A stretch of 64,000 nucleotides of DNA, taken from positions 248,001 through 312,000 of the forward strand of contig NZ_JAHCLT010000001.1 in the NCBI RefSeq assembly GCF_020005165.1. The letters run 5' to 3'. The DNA is from Kangiella taiwanensis (GTDB lineage Bacteria > Pseudomonadota > Gammaproteobacteria > Enterobacterales > Kangiellaceae). Under the pieces are notes generated by a model. The model saw only the letters and a program-made list of their open reading frames with translations, was not told where the DNA came from and ran no database searches. Each line of letters begins with the position of its first letter. Within the stretch, counting starts at the first letter, position 1. The position numbers were made by a program, and so were the translations under genes. This document shows, in pieces, positions 5,161 to 16,261 of this stretch.

Positions 5161-6525
5161 ATGAGCGATAACAAATCTAAAAAACGTGGCCTCTTTGGCT
5201 GGTTTGGTAAGAAAGAAGACGAACTTAGCAAAGAATCTAACAGTCACTTCTCACCTGAAGAATTAGAGGAAAAGCTGGAGCAGGCTGAAGAAGCCCTTGA
5301 GCATGCTATCGAACAGGACTTGGAAGGACAGCTCGACACTGAGCAAACTGATTCTGAGAAAAGCGATGCTCAAAAGGCGACGGAAAGTGATTCCATTGAA
5401 CAGGAATCTCCTCAAGTAAAAGATCAGCCCGTAACAACCGAATCTATCCACGATAACCCGACTCCAGATCTGACAGATCGTGATAATCAATCGGATGAAC
5501 CCGTCGATATCACTGAAGAGATAGACTCTATCCCAGAGCCAGCCCGCCCCGTTACTGCCGAAGAGACTCAAGAGAAACCGAGTAAAAAAGGTTTTTTCTC
5601 GCGGCTGAAAAGCGGTCTCAGCAAAACTCGCACCCAGCTCACCAGCGGAATTGCTGATCTGGTTCTTGGTAGCAAGCAAATTGATGACGACCTTCTTGAA
5701 GACATCGAAACGCAGTTGTTAATGGCGGATGTTGGCGTCGAAGCAACTCGCCGTATTATTGACGATTTAACGGAAAAGTCTGAGCGTAAAGAACTTAAAG
5801 ACGCTCAAGCCTTAATGGACAGATTGCGTCTACTGCTTTCAGATATTCTTGAGCCTTGTAGTGCTCCGTTGGAGTTAACTCACAAACCGCACGTTATTTT
5901 AATGGTCGGCGTAAATGGCGTTGGTAAAACCACGACCATTGGCAAGCTCGCTAAGAAATTCCAACAAGAAGGCAAATCTGTGATGCTGGCCGCAGGCGAT
6001 ACCTTCCGTGCAGCAGCGGTTGAGCAGCTGCAAGTCTGGGGTGAACGCAATAATATTCATGTCACGGCCCAACATACTGGCGCCGACAGCGCTTCCGTAA
6101 TCTTTGATGCATTACAATCTGCACAACGTCGCCAGATTGACGTATTGATCGCCGATACCGCAGGACGTTTACATACTAAGTCCAACTTGATGGACGAGTT
6201 AGCGAAAGTGAAGCGTGTCATGCAAAAGCTTGACCCAGGCGCGCCACATGAAGTGATGTTGGTGGTCGATGCTGGGACAGGTCAAAATGCACTGAATCAA
6301 GCAGAACATTTCCACAAATCGATTAATTTGACTGGTGTCACGATCACAAAACTGGATGGAACCGCAAAAGGTGGTATTATCTTTGCATTGGCGGATAAGT
6401 TACAGATTCCTATCCGCTTTATTGGCGTCGGCGAGGGCATCGACGACTTGCGTGAGTTTAATGCAGGCGACTTTATTGAGGCCTTGTTTACATCAGAGAA
6501 CAATAGTGAGTCGTCGCCAGAGTAA
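5161..6525 (+). CDS. ftsY: Signal recognition particle receptor FtsY
   Basis: A 454-residue GTPase, the membrane receptor of the signal recognition particle that delivers nascent inner-membrane proteins to SecYEG. Residues 1 to about 145 form the acidic, Glu/Asp/Ser-rich A domain with an amphipathic basic start (KKRGLFGWFGKK) thought to contact lipid. The N domain follows, then the G domain with GVNGVGKTTTIGKLA (G1), DTFRAAAVEQL, DTAGRLHTK (G3) and TKLDGTAKGG (G4). First gene of ftsY-ftsE-ftsX; the next start is 28 bp downstream. Confidence 0.97.
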   Translation: MSDNKSKKRGLFGWFGKKEDELSKESNSHFSPEELEEKLEQAEEALEHAIEQDLEGQLDTEQTDSEKSDAQKATESDSIEQESPQVKDQPVTTESIHDNPTPDLTDRDNQSDEPVDITEEIDSIPEPARPVTAEETQEKPSKKGFFSRLKSGLSKTRTQLTSGIADLVLGSKQIDDDLLEDIETQLLMADVGVEATRRIIDDLTEKSERKELKDAQALMDRLRLLLSDILEPCSAPLELTHKPHVILMVGVNGVGKTTTIGKLAKKFQQEGKSVMLAAGDTFRAAAVEQLQVWGERNNIHVTAQHTGADSASVIFDALQSAQRRQIDVLIADTAGRLHTKSNLMDELAKVKRVMQKLDPGAPHEVMLVVDAGTGQNALNQAEHFHKSINLTGVTITKLDGTAKGGIIFALADKLQIPIRFIGVGEGIDDLREFNAGDFIEALFTSENNSESSPE

Positions 6526-8903: not shown

Positions 8904-9027
8904 TTGATTTTTTTATTCATAGCTTGGGTTCTATTGGTGGCTGGCTTGTGCCAGTCACACTTTCGATCAAAACCCCGTGTTTATTGACATTTCTTTACCT
9001 CAATTTTGATCATAAGGCTGAAACTTT

Positions 9028-9036
9028 TGCTATATT
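9028..9036 (+). promoter_or_regulatory. Candidate extended -10 promoter of rpoH
   Basis: TG-C-TATATT matches an extended -10 element. A TTGATC at 9006-9011 could act as a weak -35 with 19 bp spacing. Transcription would start near 9043, inside the first CIRCE operator, which is the expected geometry for repression. Assigned by eye only. Confidence 0.4.
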
Positions 9037-9062
9037 TAGCACTCTTATTGACAAAGTGCTAA
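9036..9062 (+). promoter_or_regulatory. CIRCE operator 1 (HrcA site), one mismatch
   Basis: TTAGCACTC, nine bases, then AAGTGCTAA. The consensus CIRCE is TTAGCACTC-N9-GAGTGCTAA, so the left arm is perfect and the right arm differs at one base; the 9-bp spacing is exact. It lies immediately over the expected transcription start of rpoH, 31 bp before a second, perfect copy. Confidence 0.85.
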
Positions 9063-9066
9063 AAAG

Positions 9067-9093
9067 TTAGCACTCTCGCCAAAAGAGTGCTAA
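9067..9093 (+). promoter_or_regulatory. CIRCE operator 2 (HrcA site), perfect match
   Basis: TTAGCACTC, TCGCCAAAA, GAGTGCTAA: a complete match to the CIRCE consensus with the standard 9-bp spacer. It ends 34 bp before the rpoH start codon. CIRCE is the binding site of the heat-shock repressor HrcA, normally found before groESL and dnaK-type operons. Confidence 0.95.
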
Positions 9094-9127
9094 CATCTTG
9101 GTAATCACTAATTTTAGGAGGGGATGC

Positions 9128-9979
9128 ATGAGCAATATCCCAATGAACATGGCGCTAGCAGTACCGACCGGTAGCATTGACGGATACGTCAGCACGGTCA
9201 ACGCAATACCTGTTCTCTCCGCTGAAGACGAACAGGCACTAGCGCATCGCTTTAAAGACGAGAATGATCTTGACGCTGCACGCCAGTTAGTAATGGCTCA
9301 CTTACGCTTTGTCGTACATATTGCAAAGAGTTACAGTGGCTATGGCTTGCCGCAGGCAGACCTTATTCAGGAAGGTAATATCGGCCTGATGAAGGCTGTA
9401 AAACGCTTCGATCCAACGGTAGGCGTGCGTCTCGTATCGTTTGCGGTACACTGGATTAAAGCGGAAATTCATGAATACGTACTGCGAAACTGGCGCATTG
9501 TTAAAGTAGCGACCACCAAGGCTCAGCGTAAACTGTTCTTTAACCTCCGTTCTAAGAAAAAGTCTTTGAACTGGTTAAATAATGAAGAAGTTAAAGCTGT
9601 AGCAGATGACTTAGGCGTTAAGCCGGAAGAAGTTCGTCGAATGGAAGGGCGCTTAAACGCTCGTGATGCTGCTTTTGACGCACCAGCCCAGGAAGATGAC
9701 GACAGTGCAGCTTATGCTCCTGTTCATTACTTGGAAGCTTCGGATTCCGATCCAGCGGTCAGTGTTGAGCAAGAACAATGGCAAGGCCAGCGTGAAGAAC
9801 GTTTGATGTATGCTTTGAAGACCTTGGATGATCGTAGCCAAGATATTCTGCAGCAACGCTGGTTAAGTGATCAAAAAGCAACGCTACATGAGTTGGCCGA
9901 TAAATATGGTGTTTCTGCAGAGCGCATCCGTCAGCTAGAAAAGAACGCCATGAATAAGATTAAGAACGCGATTAACTAA
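9128..9979 (+). CDS. rpoH: Heat-shock sigma factor RpoH (sigma-32)
   Basis: A 283-residue alternative sigma factor directing RNA polymerase to heat-shock promoters. Seen: region 1.2/2.1 ([15 protein letters not shown]), region 2.2 [19 protein letters not shown], region 2.4 ([15 protein letters not shown]), the RpoH box with QRKLFFNLR, and region 4 ending in the helix-turn-helix [16 protein letters not shown]. The start is the ATG at 9128, set by AGGAGG at 9116-9121; an upstream in-frame TTG at 9098 lies beside the operator and is not a plausible start. Two tandem CIRCE sites precede it, so HrcA repression is likely. A strong terminator follows. Confidence 0.97.
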
Positions 9980-11077: not shown

Positions 11078-11106
11078 TTGATGTTGCGGGGTAATTCGGA
11101 TAGACT
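11078..11106 (+). promoter_or_regulatory. Candidate promoter of the aryl polyene cluster
   Basis: TTGATG (11078-11083), 17 bp, TAGACT (11101-11106). Each box matches the sigma-70 consensus at four of six positions. It falls after the preceding terminator and would start transcription about 43 bp before the first cluster gene. Found by eye. Confidence 0.35.
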
Positions 11107-11155
11107 TTCCCGATCTCATAGCGCAGACACATCAAGCAGTACACGGATAGGATCA

Positions 11156-11911
11156 ATGACAATTACTACCAAGCTTACCTTAGGCGTTCTATCATCCTAC
11201 TGCTGGATTGATGAAAACACTTTAAATGGCACTAACTGCTCCGAAAGTCTACTTAAATTTTCCGATCTTGATGCTATTAGCTTACAGCAAATACCGCCTA
11301 TTAAGCGCCGTCGGTTGAATGGTTTGAGTAGGATGGCGATGCATTCTTCTTTAGAGTGTCTTCAGCATGCGAAAATCGAACCAAGCGATGTTTTTACCGT
11401 TTTTGCCTCACAACATGGTGAGTTAAACCGTACCGTCAATATCGTCAACGACTTAGTTCAAAATGAAGATATCTCGCCTAAGGACTTTAGTTTATCGGTC
11501 CATAATGCATCTCTGGGTCTTTTTTCAATTTTTAATAAGAACAAAAATGTTGGTACCAGTATTGCCGCCAACCATAATACTTTTGGCTTTGCATTGCTCG
11601 AAAGTTACAACATTCTCAAAAGCAATCCCGATAAGAAGGTGTTATTAACCTGTTTTGATATGCAGGTAGGTCAACCCTTTGATCGGTTACAACCACGACC
11701 AGAACCAAGCTATAGCCTCGCACTAGTGCTGTCCCTAGAGGCTGAGCAAACGGTTAGCTTTACTTTTGATCGAAATGGCGATACTCAAAAACACGCCATG
11801 TCCGTTCCCCCATTGGCACTGTCTTTTTTTGAATTCATTCAAGGAAATCAGCTCACACTACAGCACCAAACACCTGATACACGTTGGGAATTCAGCAAAA
11901 ATGCTGTATAG
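11156..11911 (+). CDS. apeC: Aryl polyene chain-length factor / beta-ketoacyl synthase N-terminal-like protein ApeC
   Basis: A 251-residue protein of the beta-ketoacyl synthase N-terminal-like family (Ketoacyl-synt_2). At the place where a ketosynthase has its active-site Cys, the sequence reads SVHNASLGLF with no Cys, and the whole C-terminal half of a ketosynthase is absent. In aryl polyene systems studied in Xenorhabdus and E. coli, ApeC is the pseudo-subunit (chain-length factor) that pairs with the ketosynthase ApeO. First gene of the cluster. The ATG at 11156 follows GGATAGGA; the reading frame extends upstream to 11078 but that part overlaps the putative promoter. The stop overlaps apeD by 11 bp. 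Confidence 0.82.
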   Translation: MTITTKLTLGVLSSYCWIDENTLNGTNCSESLLKFSDLDAISLQQIPPIKRRRLNGLSRMAMHSSLECLQHAKIEPSDVFTVFASQHGELNRTVNIVNDLVQNEDISPKDFSLSVHNASLGLFSIFNKNKNVGTSIAANHNTFGFALLESYNILKSNPDKKVLLTCFDMQVGQPFDRLQPRPEPSYSLALVLSLEAEQTVSFTFDRNGDTQKHAMSVPPLALSFFEFIQGNQLTLQHQTPDTRWEFSKNAV

Positions 11912-12695
11912 AATCAATTATATATGGCGCGTTTTCGCCACGGGTTTATCTTTTACTACGTTTGGTATTGGCGGACTGTTATTGTCTCTTTTTGTTTTTC
12001 CAGTTATAGGTCTTTTTAATCGAGATCCGAATGTCCGTAAACGCAAAGCCCGCTACTTAATCCATCGTGCATGGCAATTTTTCCTTAATTTCATGCAAGC
12101 CTTGGGAATTTTCACCTTTGATTTAGAGCAAGCACGACAAGACCTTAAAGGTGTCAAAGGTAAAATTATCATTGCAAATCATCCGACCTTAATTGATGTT
12201 GTGGCGCTCATTTCATTAATTCCACGGGCCGACTGTGTGGTAAAGCAGGGATTATGGAATAATTTCTTCTTAAAACGAGTCGTCCGCGTGGCTGATTTTA
12301 TTAATAACGACCAAGATGTGAATAAGCTCATAGAAAACTGTAAAAAGACCCTCGAAGAAGGTTATAATCTGGTCATATTTCCTGAGGGTACTCGCACTGT
12401 TCCTAATCAGCCGATTAAGCTACAACGTGGCGCGGCAAATATCGCCGTTCGTTGCCATCAAAACTTATTACCGGTGATTATCGACTGCAACCCAACCACC
12501 TTAACAAAACAAGAAAAGTGGTATCAGATCCCCCCGCGTCGTGCGCAATTTTCAATGCGGGTTATCGAGGAGATAAACATTACTCCGTTTTTACTTAAGG
12601 AAAAAAATGAATCAATCGCGGCAAGACGATTAACGGAGCATATTAGAGACATTTTTATTGAGGAAGCTTTAAAGAATGAGACCATTAGAAAATGA
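11901..12695 (+). CDS. apeD: Lysophospholipid acyltransferase-family protein (ApeD-like)
   Basis: A 264-residue membrane-associated acyltransferase of the PlsC type. A hydrophobic segment at about residues 10-38 precedes the catalytic NHPTLIDV (HX4D), and FPEGTRT forms the substrate-binding block. In aryl polyene clusters an acyltransferase at this position is thought to take part in attaching or lipidating the pigment; its exact reaction is not settled. The frame is open upstream inside apeC, but the ATG at 11901, 11 bp before the apeC stop, gives the typical start. It overlaps apeE by 20 bp. Confidence 0.82.
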   Translation: MLYRINYIWRVFATGLSFTTFGIGGLLLSLFVFPVIGLFNRDPNVRKRKARYLIHRAWQFFLNFMQALGIFTFDLEQARQDLKGVKGKIIIANHPTLIDVVALISLIPRADCVVKQGLWNNFFLKRVVRVADFINNDQDVNKLIENCKKTLEEGYNLVIFPEGTRTVPNQPIKLQRGAANIAVRCHQNLLPVIIDCNPTTLTKQEKWYQIPPRRAQFSMRVIEEINITPFLLKEKNESIAARRLTEHIRDIFIEEALKNETIRK

Positions 12696-12942
12696 GATCA
12701 AAGAAGTCATTATTGAATCTCTTGATCTTGAAGATATCAGCATTGATGACATTGAAACAGAAGAGCCTTTATTTGGGGATGGGCTCGGACTCGACTCAAT
12801 TGATGCGTTAGAATTAGGCCTTGCTTTAAAAAAGAAGTTTGATATCAAACTGGACTCTAACTCTGAAGAGTCTAAAAAGCATTTCTATTCTGTCCGTACG
12901 CTCGCAGATTTCATAGAACAACAAAAACAAGGAGCTGCGTAA
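12676..12942 (+). CDS. apeE: Acyl carrier protein ApeE
   Basis: An 88-residue acidic acyl carrier protein. The phosphopantetheine attachment site is Ser41 in GLGLDSIDALEL. It is the first of two consecutive carrier proteins, as in characterised aryl polyene clusters, where they hold the aromatic starter and the growing polyene. It starts within the end of apeD and its stop overlaps the next start in TAATG, so the genes are translationally coupled. A phosphopantetheinyl transferase is needed and is not in this window. Confidence 0.93.
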   Translation: MRPLENEIKEVIIESLDLEDISIDDIETEEPLFGDGLGLDSIDALELGLALKKKFDIKLDSNSEESKKHFYSVRTLADFIEQQKQGAA

Positions 12943-13199
12943 TGGCAATGTTAGAGACAAAAGACCAAATTTATCAGCAGCTTGTTGAAATCTTGGTTGA
13001 TGACTTTGAGGTCGAAGCCGAGGACATTTCCATTGATGCCAACTTATATACCGATCTGGATTTAGACAGTATTGATACTGTTGACCTAGTCATTAAATTA
13101 CAAGAAATCACTGGCAAATCAGTGAACCCTGAGACATTCAAAGCTGTACGTACGATGCAACACGTTGTCGATGCAGTTTACGATCTAGTCCACAACTAA
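12942..13199 (+). CDS. apeF: Acyl carrier protein ApeF
   Basis: An 85-residue acyl carrier protein with Ser43 in DLDLDSIDTVDL as the phosphopantetheine site. It is more similar to typical FabF-type carriers than its neighbour ApeE and lacks the extra loop. The stop-start overlap TAATG couples it to apeE. Two adjacent, non-identical carriers are a hallmark of this pigment pathway. Confidence 0.93.
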   Translation: MAMLETKDQIYQQLVEILVDDFEVEAEDISIDANLYTDLDLDSIDTVDLVIKLQEITGKSVNPETFKAVRTMQHVVDAVYDLVHN

Positions 13200-13208
13200 C
13201 GATTTACA

Positions 13209-13781
13209 ATGTCAATCCTGCTCAAAATCACCATCGCTATGGTGGTCTTACTCTACCCCATAGCGATATATTTTGGACTACAACACCTTGAGCCGAAGCA
13301 TTTAGCCTTAGCCTTAGGTGCCCTAGTTATCCTTAGAGCATTATTGACTAACAATCAGTTGCTAAAAGCGGTTAAAGGGTTATGGGTCGTGATACTCATT
13401 GCCGGACTTGGCGTCTCTAGCCTGAGTTATTTTAATAATACTCAACTCGGACTTAAGCTTTACCCAGTGATTATAACGGCAAGTTTTTTAATCGTTTTTA
13501 GTTACAGCCTGCTCAAGCCGCCATCGGTTATAGAGCGCCTAGCCCGCTTACAAGAGCCAGACCTACCGGAAGAGGGCGTCATTTATACCAAAAAAGTTAC
13601 TCTGGTTTGGTGTGTTTTTTTTGTGTTTAACATCTTGGCATCACTTTACACAGTATTTTATACCAGCACAGAGATATGGACGCTATACAATGGCCTCATA
13701 TCCTATGCACTAATGGGCACCTTATTCCTGTCTGAGCTTTTGTATCGAAAATGGTTAATGACCAAACAGCATGATGAATAA
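13209..13781 (+). CDS. apeG: COG4648-type integral membrane protein (ApeG-like)
   Basis: A 190-residue integral membrane protein with about five or six hydrophobic segments (near residues 5-22, 28-45, 52-68, 77-97, 130-152 and 158-178). It contains no recognised catalytic motif. A membrane protein of this type occupies the same place, between the carrier proteins and the AMP ligase, in other aryl polyene clusters; its role is unknown, perhaps anchoring the synthase at the inner membrane. It overlaps the ligase gene by 11 bp. Confidence 0.75.
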   Translation: MSILLKITIAMVVLLYPIAIYFGLQHLEPKHLALALGALVILRALLTNNQLLKAVKGLWVVILIAGLGVSSLSYFNNTQLGLKLYPVIITASFLIVFSYSLLKPPSVIERLARLQEPDLPEEGVIYTKKVTLVWCVFFVFNILASLYTVFYTSTEIWTLYNGLISYALMGTLFLSELLYRKWLMTKQHDE

Positions 13782-15114
13782 TCCCGCAGAAACCAAGCTA
13801 CATCAACTCTTACTGTCGGATAGTAAGAACCTCGTTGCCGAATGCCGAGACGGACAATACCAACTCCCGCAGTTCCTTTTGCATGTGTCTCAAGCTGTTG
13901 CAAACCTTCAGACTCGCTCTGAACAGTCCTATTTACTTTTTGCACGCAACACCTATGACTTTTCAGTTAATTTTGTAGCATTACTCTTACTCCAAAAAGA
14001 CATCGTATTAACTGCAAACCATAAAGCAGAGTGGCTGGATTCAATTTCGCACGCTTTTCAGGTCATTCTTTCTGATAACTTCATCGATGGTCATATTGCG
14101 TCGGATCACTACCGGCAGAACTCATCGGTTGAAGCCAATTTTTCAGTACCTCCAGTATTCAATAGTCGCATCCAGTTTTATACCTCTGGTTCAAGCAGTG
14201 AGCCCAAAGCTGTAGTAAAAACCCTTGATCAATTATTGCTAGAAACAGCTACTCTAGAACAACTTTTTGGTCAATCCGTTGCTCAGACACAATTTTTTGC
14301 TACCGTTTCACACCACCATATTTATGGCCTGATTTTTCGCTTGTTGTGGCCACTGCTTTACCGCCACCCCTTCTGTGCTGATATGATTTTGTATCCTGAG
14401 GAACTGATCGATCGATACCAGTCACATTCCAATATCTGTTTGATTTCGAGCCCTGCTTTTTTATCTCGACATGACAAAAGCTTAACTAATATTGAGCTCA
14501 AGCAATGCTTTAGTTCTGGCAGTTTATTGTCAAATCTTTCAGCCAAGCAAACAGCACAACAATTCGGTATATATCCAACTGAGGTTTTTGGGAGCACCGA
14601 AACGGGGGGAATTGGCTATAGAACACAGGAAAAGGGTAATACTCGTTGGTCTCTATTCCCAGGGGTGACTATTGAAACCGACACCACCAATCGAGGCATA
14701 CTTTATTCTCCTTATTTAAACCAGCCTCAGCCTCTCGACGACTTGATTGAGTTAGACGGTGATCGTCATTTTCACCTTCTTGGTCGCGCTGATCGCGTCG
14801 TAAAAATTGAAGAAAAACGACTGTCTCTCGATGCGCTAGAAACAACACTTAAAACATCATCGCTGGTGAATGAAGCGAAAGTAGTTGTTATCCAAGACAA
14901 GCGAACATTTATTGGCGCGGTCATCGAGCTAAGCGCCGAAGGTCAAGAGTTTATGCTTTCTCACTCAAAGCATAAACTCAATGAAGAATTAAAATCCAAG
15001 CTTATTAACACCTTTGAAGCAGTTGCTATCCCAAGAAAATGGCGCTATTTTGAGCGCTTACCTTATAACTCAGAGGGCAAGTTGCCATTGAGCTCACTGA
15101 CGGCGTTGTTTTAG
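13771..15114 (+). CDS. apeH: AMP-dependent aryl acid ligase ApeH
   Basis: A 447-residue ANL-superfamily adenylating enzyme, shorter than ordinary acyl-CoA synthetases (500 or more). Seen: the P-loop FYTSGSSSEPKAVVKT near residue 135, FGSTETGGIGYR (the A5 motif), and the hinge region LLGRADRVVKIEEKRLSLDALE; the C-terminal Lys in SEGKLP is the adenylation lysine. In this pathway ApeH activates an aryl acid (4-hydroxybenzoate or a cinnamate-type acid) and loads it on a carrier protein. With an ammonia lyase in this operon a hydroxycinnamate starter is plausible. Confidence 0.88.
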   Translation: MMNNPAETKLHQLLLSDSKNLVAECRDGQYQLPQFLLHVSQAVANLQTRSEQSYLLFARNTYDFSVNFVALLLLQKDIVLTANHKAEWLDSISHAFQVILSDNFIDGHIASDHYRQNSSVEANFSVPPVFNSRIQFYTSGSSSEPKAVVKTLDQLLLETATLEQLFGQSVAQTQFFATVSHHHIYGLIFRLLWPLLYRHPFCADMILYPEELIDRYQSHSNICLISSPAFLSRHDKSLTNIELKQCFSSGSLLSNLSAKQTAQQFGIYPTEVFGSTETGGIGYRTQEKGNTRWSLFPGVTIETDTTNRGILYSPYLNQPQPLDDLIELDGDRHFHLLGRADRVVKIEEKRLSLDALETTLKTSSLVNEAKVVVIQDKRTFIGAVIELSAEGQEFMLSHSKHKLNEELKSKLINTFEAVAIPRKWRYFERLPYNSEGKLPLSSLTALF

Positions 15115-15123
15115 AAAACTGAT

Positions 15124-15498
15124 ATGAATTACCCCAAAGTATTACATCAAGAAGGCGACCAAAGCACATTACAGCTTAGCCTCGATATCCAACCCAACTT
15201 AGATGCCTTCGCAGGACATTTTGAGGAGTTTCCTATCGTGCCAGGGGTCGTTCAAATTCAATGGGCATTACATTTCTTTAAGAGCCTGATGGCGGTGTCG
15301 CCATCGTTACAACAAGCTACTGTTACTAAGATGTCAGCGCTGAAATTTCAGCATGTCATTACCCCTAACGTCGAAGTTAGCCTAAGGTTAAACTTTGATA
15401 ACGAGAAATCCTGCCTGACATTTAAGATGGATAACCCAGAACACAACTTTTCATCGGGTAAACTGTTCCTTACTCAAGACATGAGTAGCCATGCCTGA
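15124..15498 (+). CDS. apeI: Hot-dog dehydratase ApeI
   Basis: A 124-residue hot-dog-fold protein of the FabA/FabZ-like type. The pattern GHFEEFPIVPGVVQIQWA carries the active-site His and the Pro-Gly turn of thioester dehydratases. In aryl polyene synthesis ApeI forms a dehydratase heterodimer with ApeP and removes water from 3-hydroxyacyl intermediates, creating the conjugated double bonds. It lies 9 bp after apeH and overlaps the glycosyltransferase gene by 8 bp. Confidence 0.87.
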   Translation: MNYPKVLHQEGDQSTLQLSLDIQPNLDAFAGHFEEFPIVPGVVQIQWALHFFKSLMAVSPSLQQATVTKMSALKFQHVITPNVEVSLRLNFDNEKSCLTFKMDNPEHNFSSGKLFLTQDMSSHA

Positions 15499-16261
15499 TA
15501 TTAATACTCACAGTTACTGCGTCATCATCCCGAACTACAATCATACTCAGCATATTGAGCAGGTTTTGACCGAGATTATTCGTCAGCAATTACCTGTCAT
15601 CATGGTTAACGACGGTAGCGACGCCACAACTACCGAGTTTTTAAAGAAACTTCCTTCTCGCTTCCCGTCTCTCGAACTTATTCATTTGGAGCAAAATCAA
15701 GGGAAGGGTGGGGCTGTTATACAAGGTCTCATTTGTGCACATGAGCGTGGTTATAGCCATGCCATCCAAGTTGATGCTGATGGTCAACATAGCATTTCAG
15801 ATATCAAGCAGTTCATTACTTTGAGTCAGTCTGCACCGCAAGCTGTCATTTGTGGTATTCCTGATTATGATAAAACCGTGCCACTCGGACGTTTGATTCC
15901 TCGCTACATTACGCATTTTTGGGTTTGGGTCGAAACCTTGTCGTTCAGAATTAAAGACTCAATGTGTGGCTTCAGGTTGTATCCGTTATCCAGCACCTAT
16001 GATCTTATTAACAACAATCGAATCGGCAAAAGAATGGATTTCGACACTGACATTTTGGTCAGACTGGACTGGAAAGGGGTACCCATTATCAATTTGCCTA
16101 CCCGTGTCACTTATCCCGAAGACGGCTCATCCCACTTTCAAATGTTTAAAGACAACTGGCTTATCACTAAAATGCACACACGGCTAGTTTTCGGCATGCT
16201 ACTCAGAGCGCCTAAACTCATAGCTCGCCACTTTAAGCCCGCGAATCGGACGATGCCATGA
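15491..16261 (+). CDS. Family 2 glycosyltransferase (first half of ApeJ function)
   Basis: A 256-residue GT-A glycosyltransferase. Seen: CVIIPNYNHTQHIEQVL at the N-terminus, NDGSD, GKGGAVIQGL, and the metal-binding DADGQH; the acceptor loop carries DSMCGFRLYP and RMDFDTDILVR. In aryl polyene clusters glycosyl- and acyltransferase parts are commonly one fused protein (ApeJ); here they are two genes overlapping in ATGA. The likely role is joining the polyene to a sugar/lipid carrier at the inner membrane, by inference from the fused homologue. Confidence 0.82.
   Translation: MPDINTHSYCVIIPNYNHTQHIEQVLTEIIRQQLPVIMVNDGSDATTTEFLKKLPSRFPSLELIHLEQNQGKGGAVIQGLICAHERGYSHAIQVDADGQHSISDIKQFITLSQSAPQAVICGIPDYDKTVPLGRLIPRYITHFWVWVETLSFRIKDSMCGFRLYPLSSTYDLINNNRIGKRMDFDTDILVRLDWKGVPIINLPTRVTYPEDGSSHFQMFKDNWLITKMHTRLVFGMLLRAPKLIARHFKPANRTMP

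Follow-up and report, generated by a model that had tools for sequence, protein, structure and literature searches.

Introduction

HrcA and σ32, the product of rpoH, are commonly presented as two alternative ways of organizing the heat-shock response, and E. coli regulates rpoH without hrcA. In HrcA/CIRCE regulons a CIRCE before hrcA or dnaK is common, if not universal. That HrcA may act at rpoH is not new in principle. The delta-proteobacterium Geobacter sulfurreducens, which has both hrcA and rpoH, carries a perfect CIRCE before rpoH, at -51, beside a CIRCE at groESL and one at hrcA-grpE-dnaK-dnaJ, and the available portion of that report makes no mention of a σE promoter at rpoH (PMC545781). 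In Helicobacter pylori the HrcA operators overlap the core promoters of the groE and dnaK operons and GroE raises HrcA binding, as in a titration model; the HrcA targets described in the excerpt available are these chaperone operons and not rpoH (PMC6032397). For E. coli, a review assigns the P3 promoter of rpoH to RpoE (PMC8103513), and the σE motifs are given as GGAACTT with a TCAAA-like -10 (PMC4890791). Among the matches listed from the open literature there was neither a σE/HrcA composite rpoH promoter nor a tandem CIRCE at rpoH; Permina and Gelfand 2003 may already report CIRCE at rpoH in beta or gamma groups.

Here we analyze the rpoH locus of Kangiella taiwanensis in a stretch of 64 kb (hereafter the window). 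Like G. sulfurreducens, this organism has hrcA and rpoH with CIRCE at both rpoH and groESL, but rpoH is preceded by two sites instead of one and no CIRCE with up to four mismatches is found at the hrcA-grpE locus. The model that we propose resembles H. pylori in that an HrcA site would lie over the core promoter and start.

Results

Two CIRCE operators lie upstream of rpoH

The rpoH gene occupies positions 9128-9979 of the forward strand, with an ATG start at 9128, and was identified by a profile search (414 bits to TIGR02392, cut-off 323). The gene order around it is ftsY-ftsE-ftsX-(yceI-like)-rpoH, and a ribosome binding site, AGGAGG, was read from the sequence upstream of it at 9116-9121 on the same strand. 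The preliminary description had placed two tandem CIRCE before this gene, one perfect and one with a single mismatch, and both were recovered by exact and mismatch searches. CIRCE 1 (9036-9062, forward strand) consists of TTAGCACTC-N9-AAGTGCTAA, one mismatch away from the pattern TTAGCACTC-N9-GAGTGCTAA, which CIRCE 2 (9067-9093, forward strand) matches perfectly. The 9-bp centres of both sites and the 31-bp distance between their starts were also as described; the gap of 4 bp (9063-9066) sets this distance, which is about three helical turns. CIRCE 2 is predicted to be transcribed as part of the 5' leader. The exact search found one perfect CIRCE in the window vs none in 100 shuffles, and with up to three mismatches exactly two sites were found, vs 0.01 expected per shuffle. 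A chance origin of the pair was rejected by these shuffles and by the genome-wide searches. Elsewhere in the window, at 11078-16261, there may be a cluster of the aryl-polyene type: by eye, the run of frames there resembles a ketosynthase, an acyltransferase, two acyl carrier proteins, a ligase, a dehydratase and a glycosyltransferase.

In all, the genome (2.56 Mb, 6 contigs) contains only three CIRCE with up to three mismatches: the pair in the window and a perfect one about 70 bp before groES. The same pattern read backwards gave one chance match at this tolerance, so a chance CIRCE match is possible at three mismatches; the three genomic sites, with 0, 0 and 1 mismatches, lie below it. No other CIRCE within three mismatches was found in the genome, including before hrcA or dnaK. 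The preliminary description had proposed to look for hrcA in the same genome and for CIRCE before groES and dnaK; hrcA is there (313 bits, cut-off 197), and a CIRCE was found before groES and not before dnaK. The product of hrcA has sequence similarity to the solved HrcA 1STZ (E 3e-19). Judging from translations, hrcA is flanked by a nadK-like gene on one side and a grpE-like gene on the other, and dnaK is found some 3 kb past hrcA. Before dnaK we also noted a tandem pair of similar small secreted-looking cysteine proteins (L194:545-832 and 885-1178).

CIRCE at rpoH accompanies hrcA across the class

We surveyed the class Gammaproteobacteria in the GTDB sense, with Burkholderiales (369 genomes, 269 with hrcA and 346 with rpoH). 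The region upstream of rpoH was sampled in 69 of these genomes, nearly all one per family, among the matches listed. A CIRCE with up to three mismatches was found at rpoH in 57 of the 69, namely in 54/57 genomes with hrcA vs 3/12 without it. This indicates that genomes which have kept hrcA usually carry an HrcA operator at rpoH. At two mismatches or fewer the counts are 49/57 and 2/12 (Fisher p 6.5e-6), and the two exceptions lacking hrcA (L129 and L179) come from incomplete genomes, G138 and G044, which are 73 and 62 percent complete. The third exception, G114 (L152), has a decayed site with three mismatches together with a TGAACTT motif at rpoH, and this site is a possible relic. A separate set of named rpoH loci, taken from one scan, had an upstream CIRCE with up to three mismatches in 36 of 80 cases. 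In the family of the window at least one such site is present in all 37 genomes with an rpoH match, the comparison of related rpoH upstream regions being one that the preliminary description had suggested.

The presence of hrcA, the CIRCE at groES and the operators kept in 37/37 family genomes together make it likely that rpoH is under HrcA control. On this point the preliminary description is supported. An exceptional status of CIRCE at rpoH among gammaproteobacteria is not supported: a site is found in 57/69 class genomes and also in G. sulfurreducens (PMC545781). A restriction of CIRCE at rpoH to the lineage of the window was likewise rejected by the class and named-locus surveys.

Two further observations were made in these surveys. 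In loci of Lysobacteraceae and Luteimonas (L060, L036 and others) both half-sites are altered symmetrically, wholly or partly to TTAGCAGTC...GACTGCTAA, which might reflect a shift of HrcA specificity in that group. One genome contains a second rpoH-like stretch (G012:C30:5499-6281) with seven in-frame stops and an upstream CIRCE at 6454-6480, perhaps a decaying duplicate.

The 31-bp tandem pair is specific to the family

A search for two CIRCE whose starts lie exactly 31 bp apart, a pattern that itself fixes the spacing, found the pair in 26 of 40 family genomes, including 20/20 of the genus of the window, and in all 26 it lies upstream of rpoH. In the class it was found in only 1/369 genomes, the window's own, so a tandem pair widespread at this spacing was rejected; the doubling of the operator, the main point of the preliminary description, is unusual. 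By these genome counts, a pair at exactly 31 bp characterizes the family. Eleven other family genomes have rpoH, and an open scan detected a second site with up to four mismatches at 30 or 33 bp in four of them (L112, L115, L117 and L121) and no second CIRCE that close in the remaining seven. All three spacings are near three helical turns; the 30- and 33-bp cases come from the open scan, and the dominance of 31 is affected by the 31-bp search pattern. No second CIRCE at other spacings, with up to four mismatches, was found in the 69 class loci or in the 36 named CIRCE loci.

Among the 20 genus members the mean top-base frequency is 0.97 in the half-sites vs 0.55 in the preceding 40 nt, in rows that were chosen by the pair pattern. 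The corresponding values are 0.58 for the centre of CIRCE 1, 0.71 for the centre of CIRCE 2, 0.85 for the gap and 0.55-0.59 for the flanks.

A σE-type promoter motif is embedded in the rpoH CIRCE

σE promoters have a spacer of 16 nt. Our rule for a σE-type motif required at least five of the seven letters of GGAACTT, a spacer of 15-17 nt and TCNNA. In the window it returned GAAACTT-N16-TCTTA on the forward strand, with a predicted -35 at 9020-9026 (5/7 letters; GAAACTT, not GGAACTT) and a predicted -10 at 9043-9047. The -10 is made of CIRCE 1 letters, TC coming from CACTC and TTA from the centre of the operator.

When the loci were aligned on CIRCE, the GGAACTT motif stood in fixed phase with the operator. 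GAAC starts exactly 15 nt before CIRCE in 36/57 class loci vs 0.36 loci per other offset, and the -10 begins at the eighth base of CIRCE in 41/57, with seven loci having the motif elsewhere nearby and nine having none. Shuffles of the upstream DNA gave this embedded form in a mean of 1.17 and a maximum of 4 class loci. The named set behaved similarly (embedded in 19/36, elsewhere in 5, none in 12; shuffles 0.48, maximum 4), as did the family set (embedded in 22/37, elsewhere in 9, none in 6; shuffles 0.92, maximum 3). The family -35 is mostly GAAACTT, and only 7/37 loci have an exact GAAC at -15. A CIRCE centre with T first and A third, the letters that the -10 requires, was seen on the sense side in 31/57 class loci vs 8/57 on the mirror strand. 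Several beta-type loci have a CIRCE at rpoH without a σE-type motif, and in six genus members (L100, L103, L105-L108) the motif is displaced upstream by about 23 nt, which indicates that the overlap between CIRCE and the -10 is not obligatory. As a control, the groES CIRCE had GAAC at -15 in 0/20 loci; 5/20 reached four of the six letters of GAACTT, so A/T-rich sequence does give weak matches.

The K. taiwanensis genome contains rpoE (323 bits, cut-off 236), and a 216-aa frame downstream of it resembles, by eye, its anti-sigma factor. Taken together, a σE-type promoter overlapping CIRCE 1 is most consistent with the conservation at this locus.

The preliminary description had pointed to another promoter element, the σ70-like extended -10 TGCTATATT. 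Its letters exist at 9028-9036 on the forward strand, but the nearest -35-like sequence, TTGATC at 9006, is separated from it by a 19-nt spacer, the σ70 scan reported another pair (TTGACA at 8984 to GATCAT at 9013), and TATATT is absent from several genus members (e.g. L092, L094 and L096) where the σE-type pair persists. The extended -10 is therefore a weakly supported candidate and doubtful as the rpoH promoter. A σ32 promoter at rpoH itself was also considered and rejected, its best match (9/13) being equalled by 49 percent of shuffles.

The motif is also found where the operator is missing. In E. coli K-12 the same rule finds TGAACTT-N16-TCTGA upstream of rpoH, but there is no CIRCE: the equivalent place has 12 mismatches and the best in 245 nt upstream has 8. 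Within 300 nt, 30/44 named loci without CIRCE have a σE-type motif, as have 6/12 class loci from genomes without hrcA, both counts being without a shuffle control. In Xanthomonas pisi (L047) GGAACTT-N16-TCCAA is kept, and in unchanged phase to it stands an operator that has decayed to 5 mismatches.

The groES CIRCE carries a σ32-type motif instead

The groES CIRCE of K. taiwanensis (L001) is the same operator as those at rpoH and also appears fused to an alternative-sigma promoter, but of another kind: its right half-site gives a σ32-type -35, TTGAG, with CCCCAT 13 nt on. Out of 21 groES loci in the family, 20 had a readable gene start (among L001 and L197-L216), and in 20/20 of these the right half-site has TTGA before it, so that the sequence reads (C)TTGAGT, and in 20/20 CCCCAT follows 13 nt on. 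The same tests at the rpoH CIRCE found TTGA in 3/57 class, 0/37 family and 2/36 named loci, and CCCCAT in 1/57, 0/37 and 1/36, respectively. Since the motif counts differ in this way between the loci, the operator would hold a σ32 -35 at groES and a σE -10 at rpoH, and the HrcA operator thus seems to be fused to the promoter of a different sigma factor at each of its two targets. The CCCC in the centre of the groES CIRCE was rejected as a σ32 -10, GGGG standing there in other genera and the -35 lying in the right half-site instead.

σ32-type motifs were also scored at the other chaperone genes. That of hrcA was equalled by 4 percent of shuffles, that of grpE by 0/300, and that of dnaK (11/13) by 9 percent. 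Because the dnaK motif is weak, that RpoH also drives dnaK is an inference of ours.

Discussion

We consider it likely from these sequence comparisons that rpoH in K. taiwanensis has a composite promoter at which HrcA blocks σE-driven transcription until GroEL is titrated. RNA polymerase with σE (RpoE) would start rpoH transcription from GAAACTT-N16-TCTTA. HrcA bound to CIRCE 1 would cover the -10 and the predicted start near 9053, so the repressor and the σE-polymerase would be mutually exclusive. CIRCE 2 lies three turns of the helix away on the same side of the DNA, and a further HrcA dimer bound there might strengthen or sharpen repression, possibly by cooperating with the first. As in the titration model reported for other bacteria (PMC6032397), unfolded protein would titrate GroEL, HrcA would lose activity and rpoH transcription would be released, most strongly if envelope stress had also freed σE. 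σ32 would then drive groESL, whose σ32 promoter also sits in a CIRCE, and the additional GroEL would restore HrcA and end the response. As groESL would be raised both directly, with HrcA off, and through more σ32, the circuit would form a coherent feed-forward loop. HrcA would reach dnaK and hrcA-grpE only through RpoH because no CIRCE is found there.

The same operators could be read differently. HrcA may repress an rpoH gene whose promoter is an ordinary σ70 one; the CIRCE pair, a short way downstream, would then serve as operator or roadblock in the manner of classical groESL. The presence of TGCTATATT and of the TTGACA/GATCAT pair would fit such an arrangement, as would the nine class loci with CIRCE at rpoH and no σE-type motif; we nevertheless find it rather unlikely, given that TATATT is not kept in the genus and that the σE-type pair stands in a fixed class-wide phase far above shuffles. 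A role at the RNA level seems very improbable. Here a stem-loop of CIRCE 2 in the predicted leader RNA (9066-9094, forward strand; 11 pairs) would set the stability or translation of rpoH mRNA, with HrcA secondary or irrelevant, and the leader does fold better than shuffles (z-score -3.2). However, any perfect inverted repeat folds likewise, the CIRCE letters are kept beyond what pairing asks and track hrcA, and transcription from the predicted start would take in only part of CIRCE 1, so that the hairpin is at most a minor alternative.

Just as little weight falls on the idea that the sites are relics, or are bound with no consequence for rpoH, whose control would then work chiefly through translation and protein stability, as it does in E. 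coli. That organism manages rpoH without hrcA and has the σE-type motif without CIRCE, but in the genus of the window the half-sites are near invariant while the flanks have diverged, and CIRCE loss tracks hrcA loss, the genome that lacks hrcA and retains a three-mismatch site (G114) showing it in decayed form. Compared with these explanations, we favour repression by HrcA of a σE-type promoter embedded in CIRCE 1.

Among the matches listed from the open literature we found neither the class-wide fusion of a σE promoter with CIRCE at rpoH nor the family-specific phased pair. On balance, we lean towards the view that a σE promoter fused to an HrcA operator is the old arrangement by which Gammaproteobacteria (GTDB, with Burkholderiales) controlled rpoH, an arrangement which would read envelope stress and GroEL load at one -10, and that the E. 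coli σE promoter is its remnant after hrcA loss. HrcA would then govern the whole σ32 regulon indirectly, with a σ32 promoter likewise fused to CIRCE at groESL, and the family of the window would have doubled the operator at a fixed three-turn phase. If rpoH is an HrcA target in most Gammaproteobacteria that bear hrcA, HrcA and σ32 would belong to a single hierarchy, and the circuit of E. coli would be derived and simplified. The fused operators allow a prediction of the sigma factor behind each HrcA target, and they also predict that a single base in the variable centre of CIRCE can be under selection because it belongs to a promoter. With its fixed spacing of 31 bp, the pair of this family offers a natural case for asking whether HrcA dimers cooperate, and in these bacteria two damage sensors would meet at one rpoH switch.
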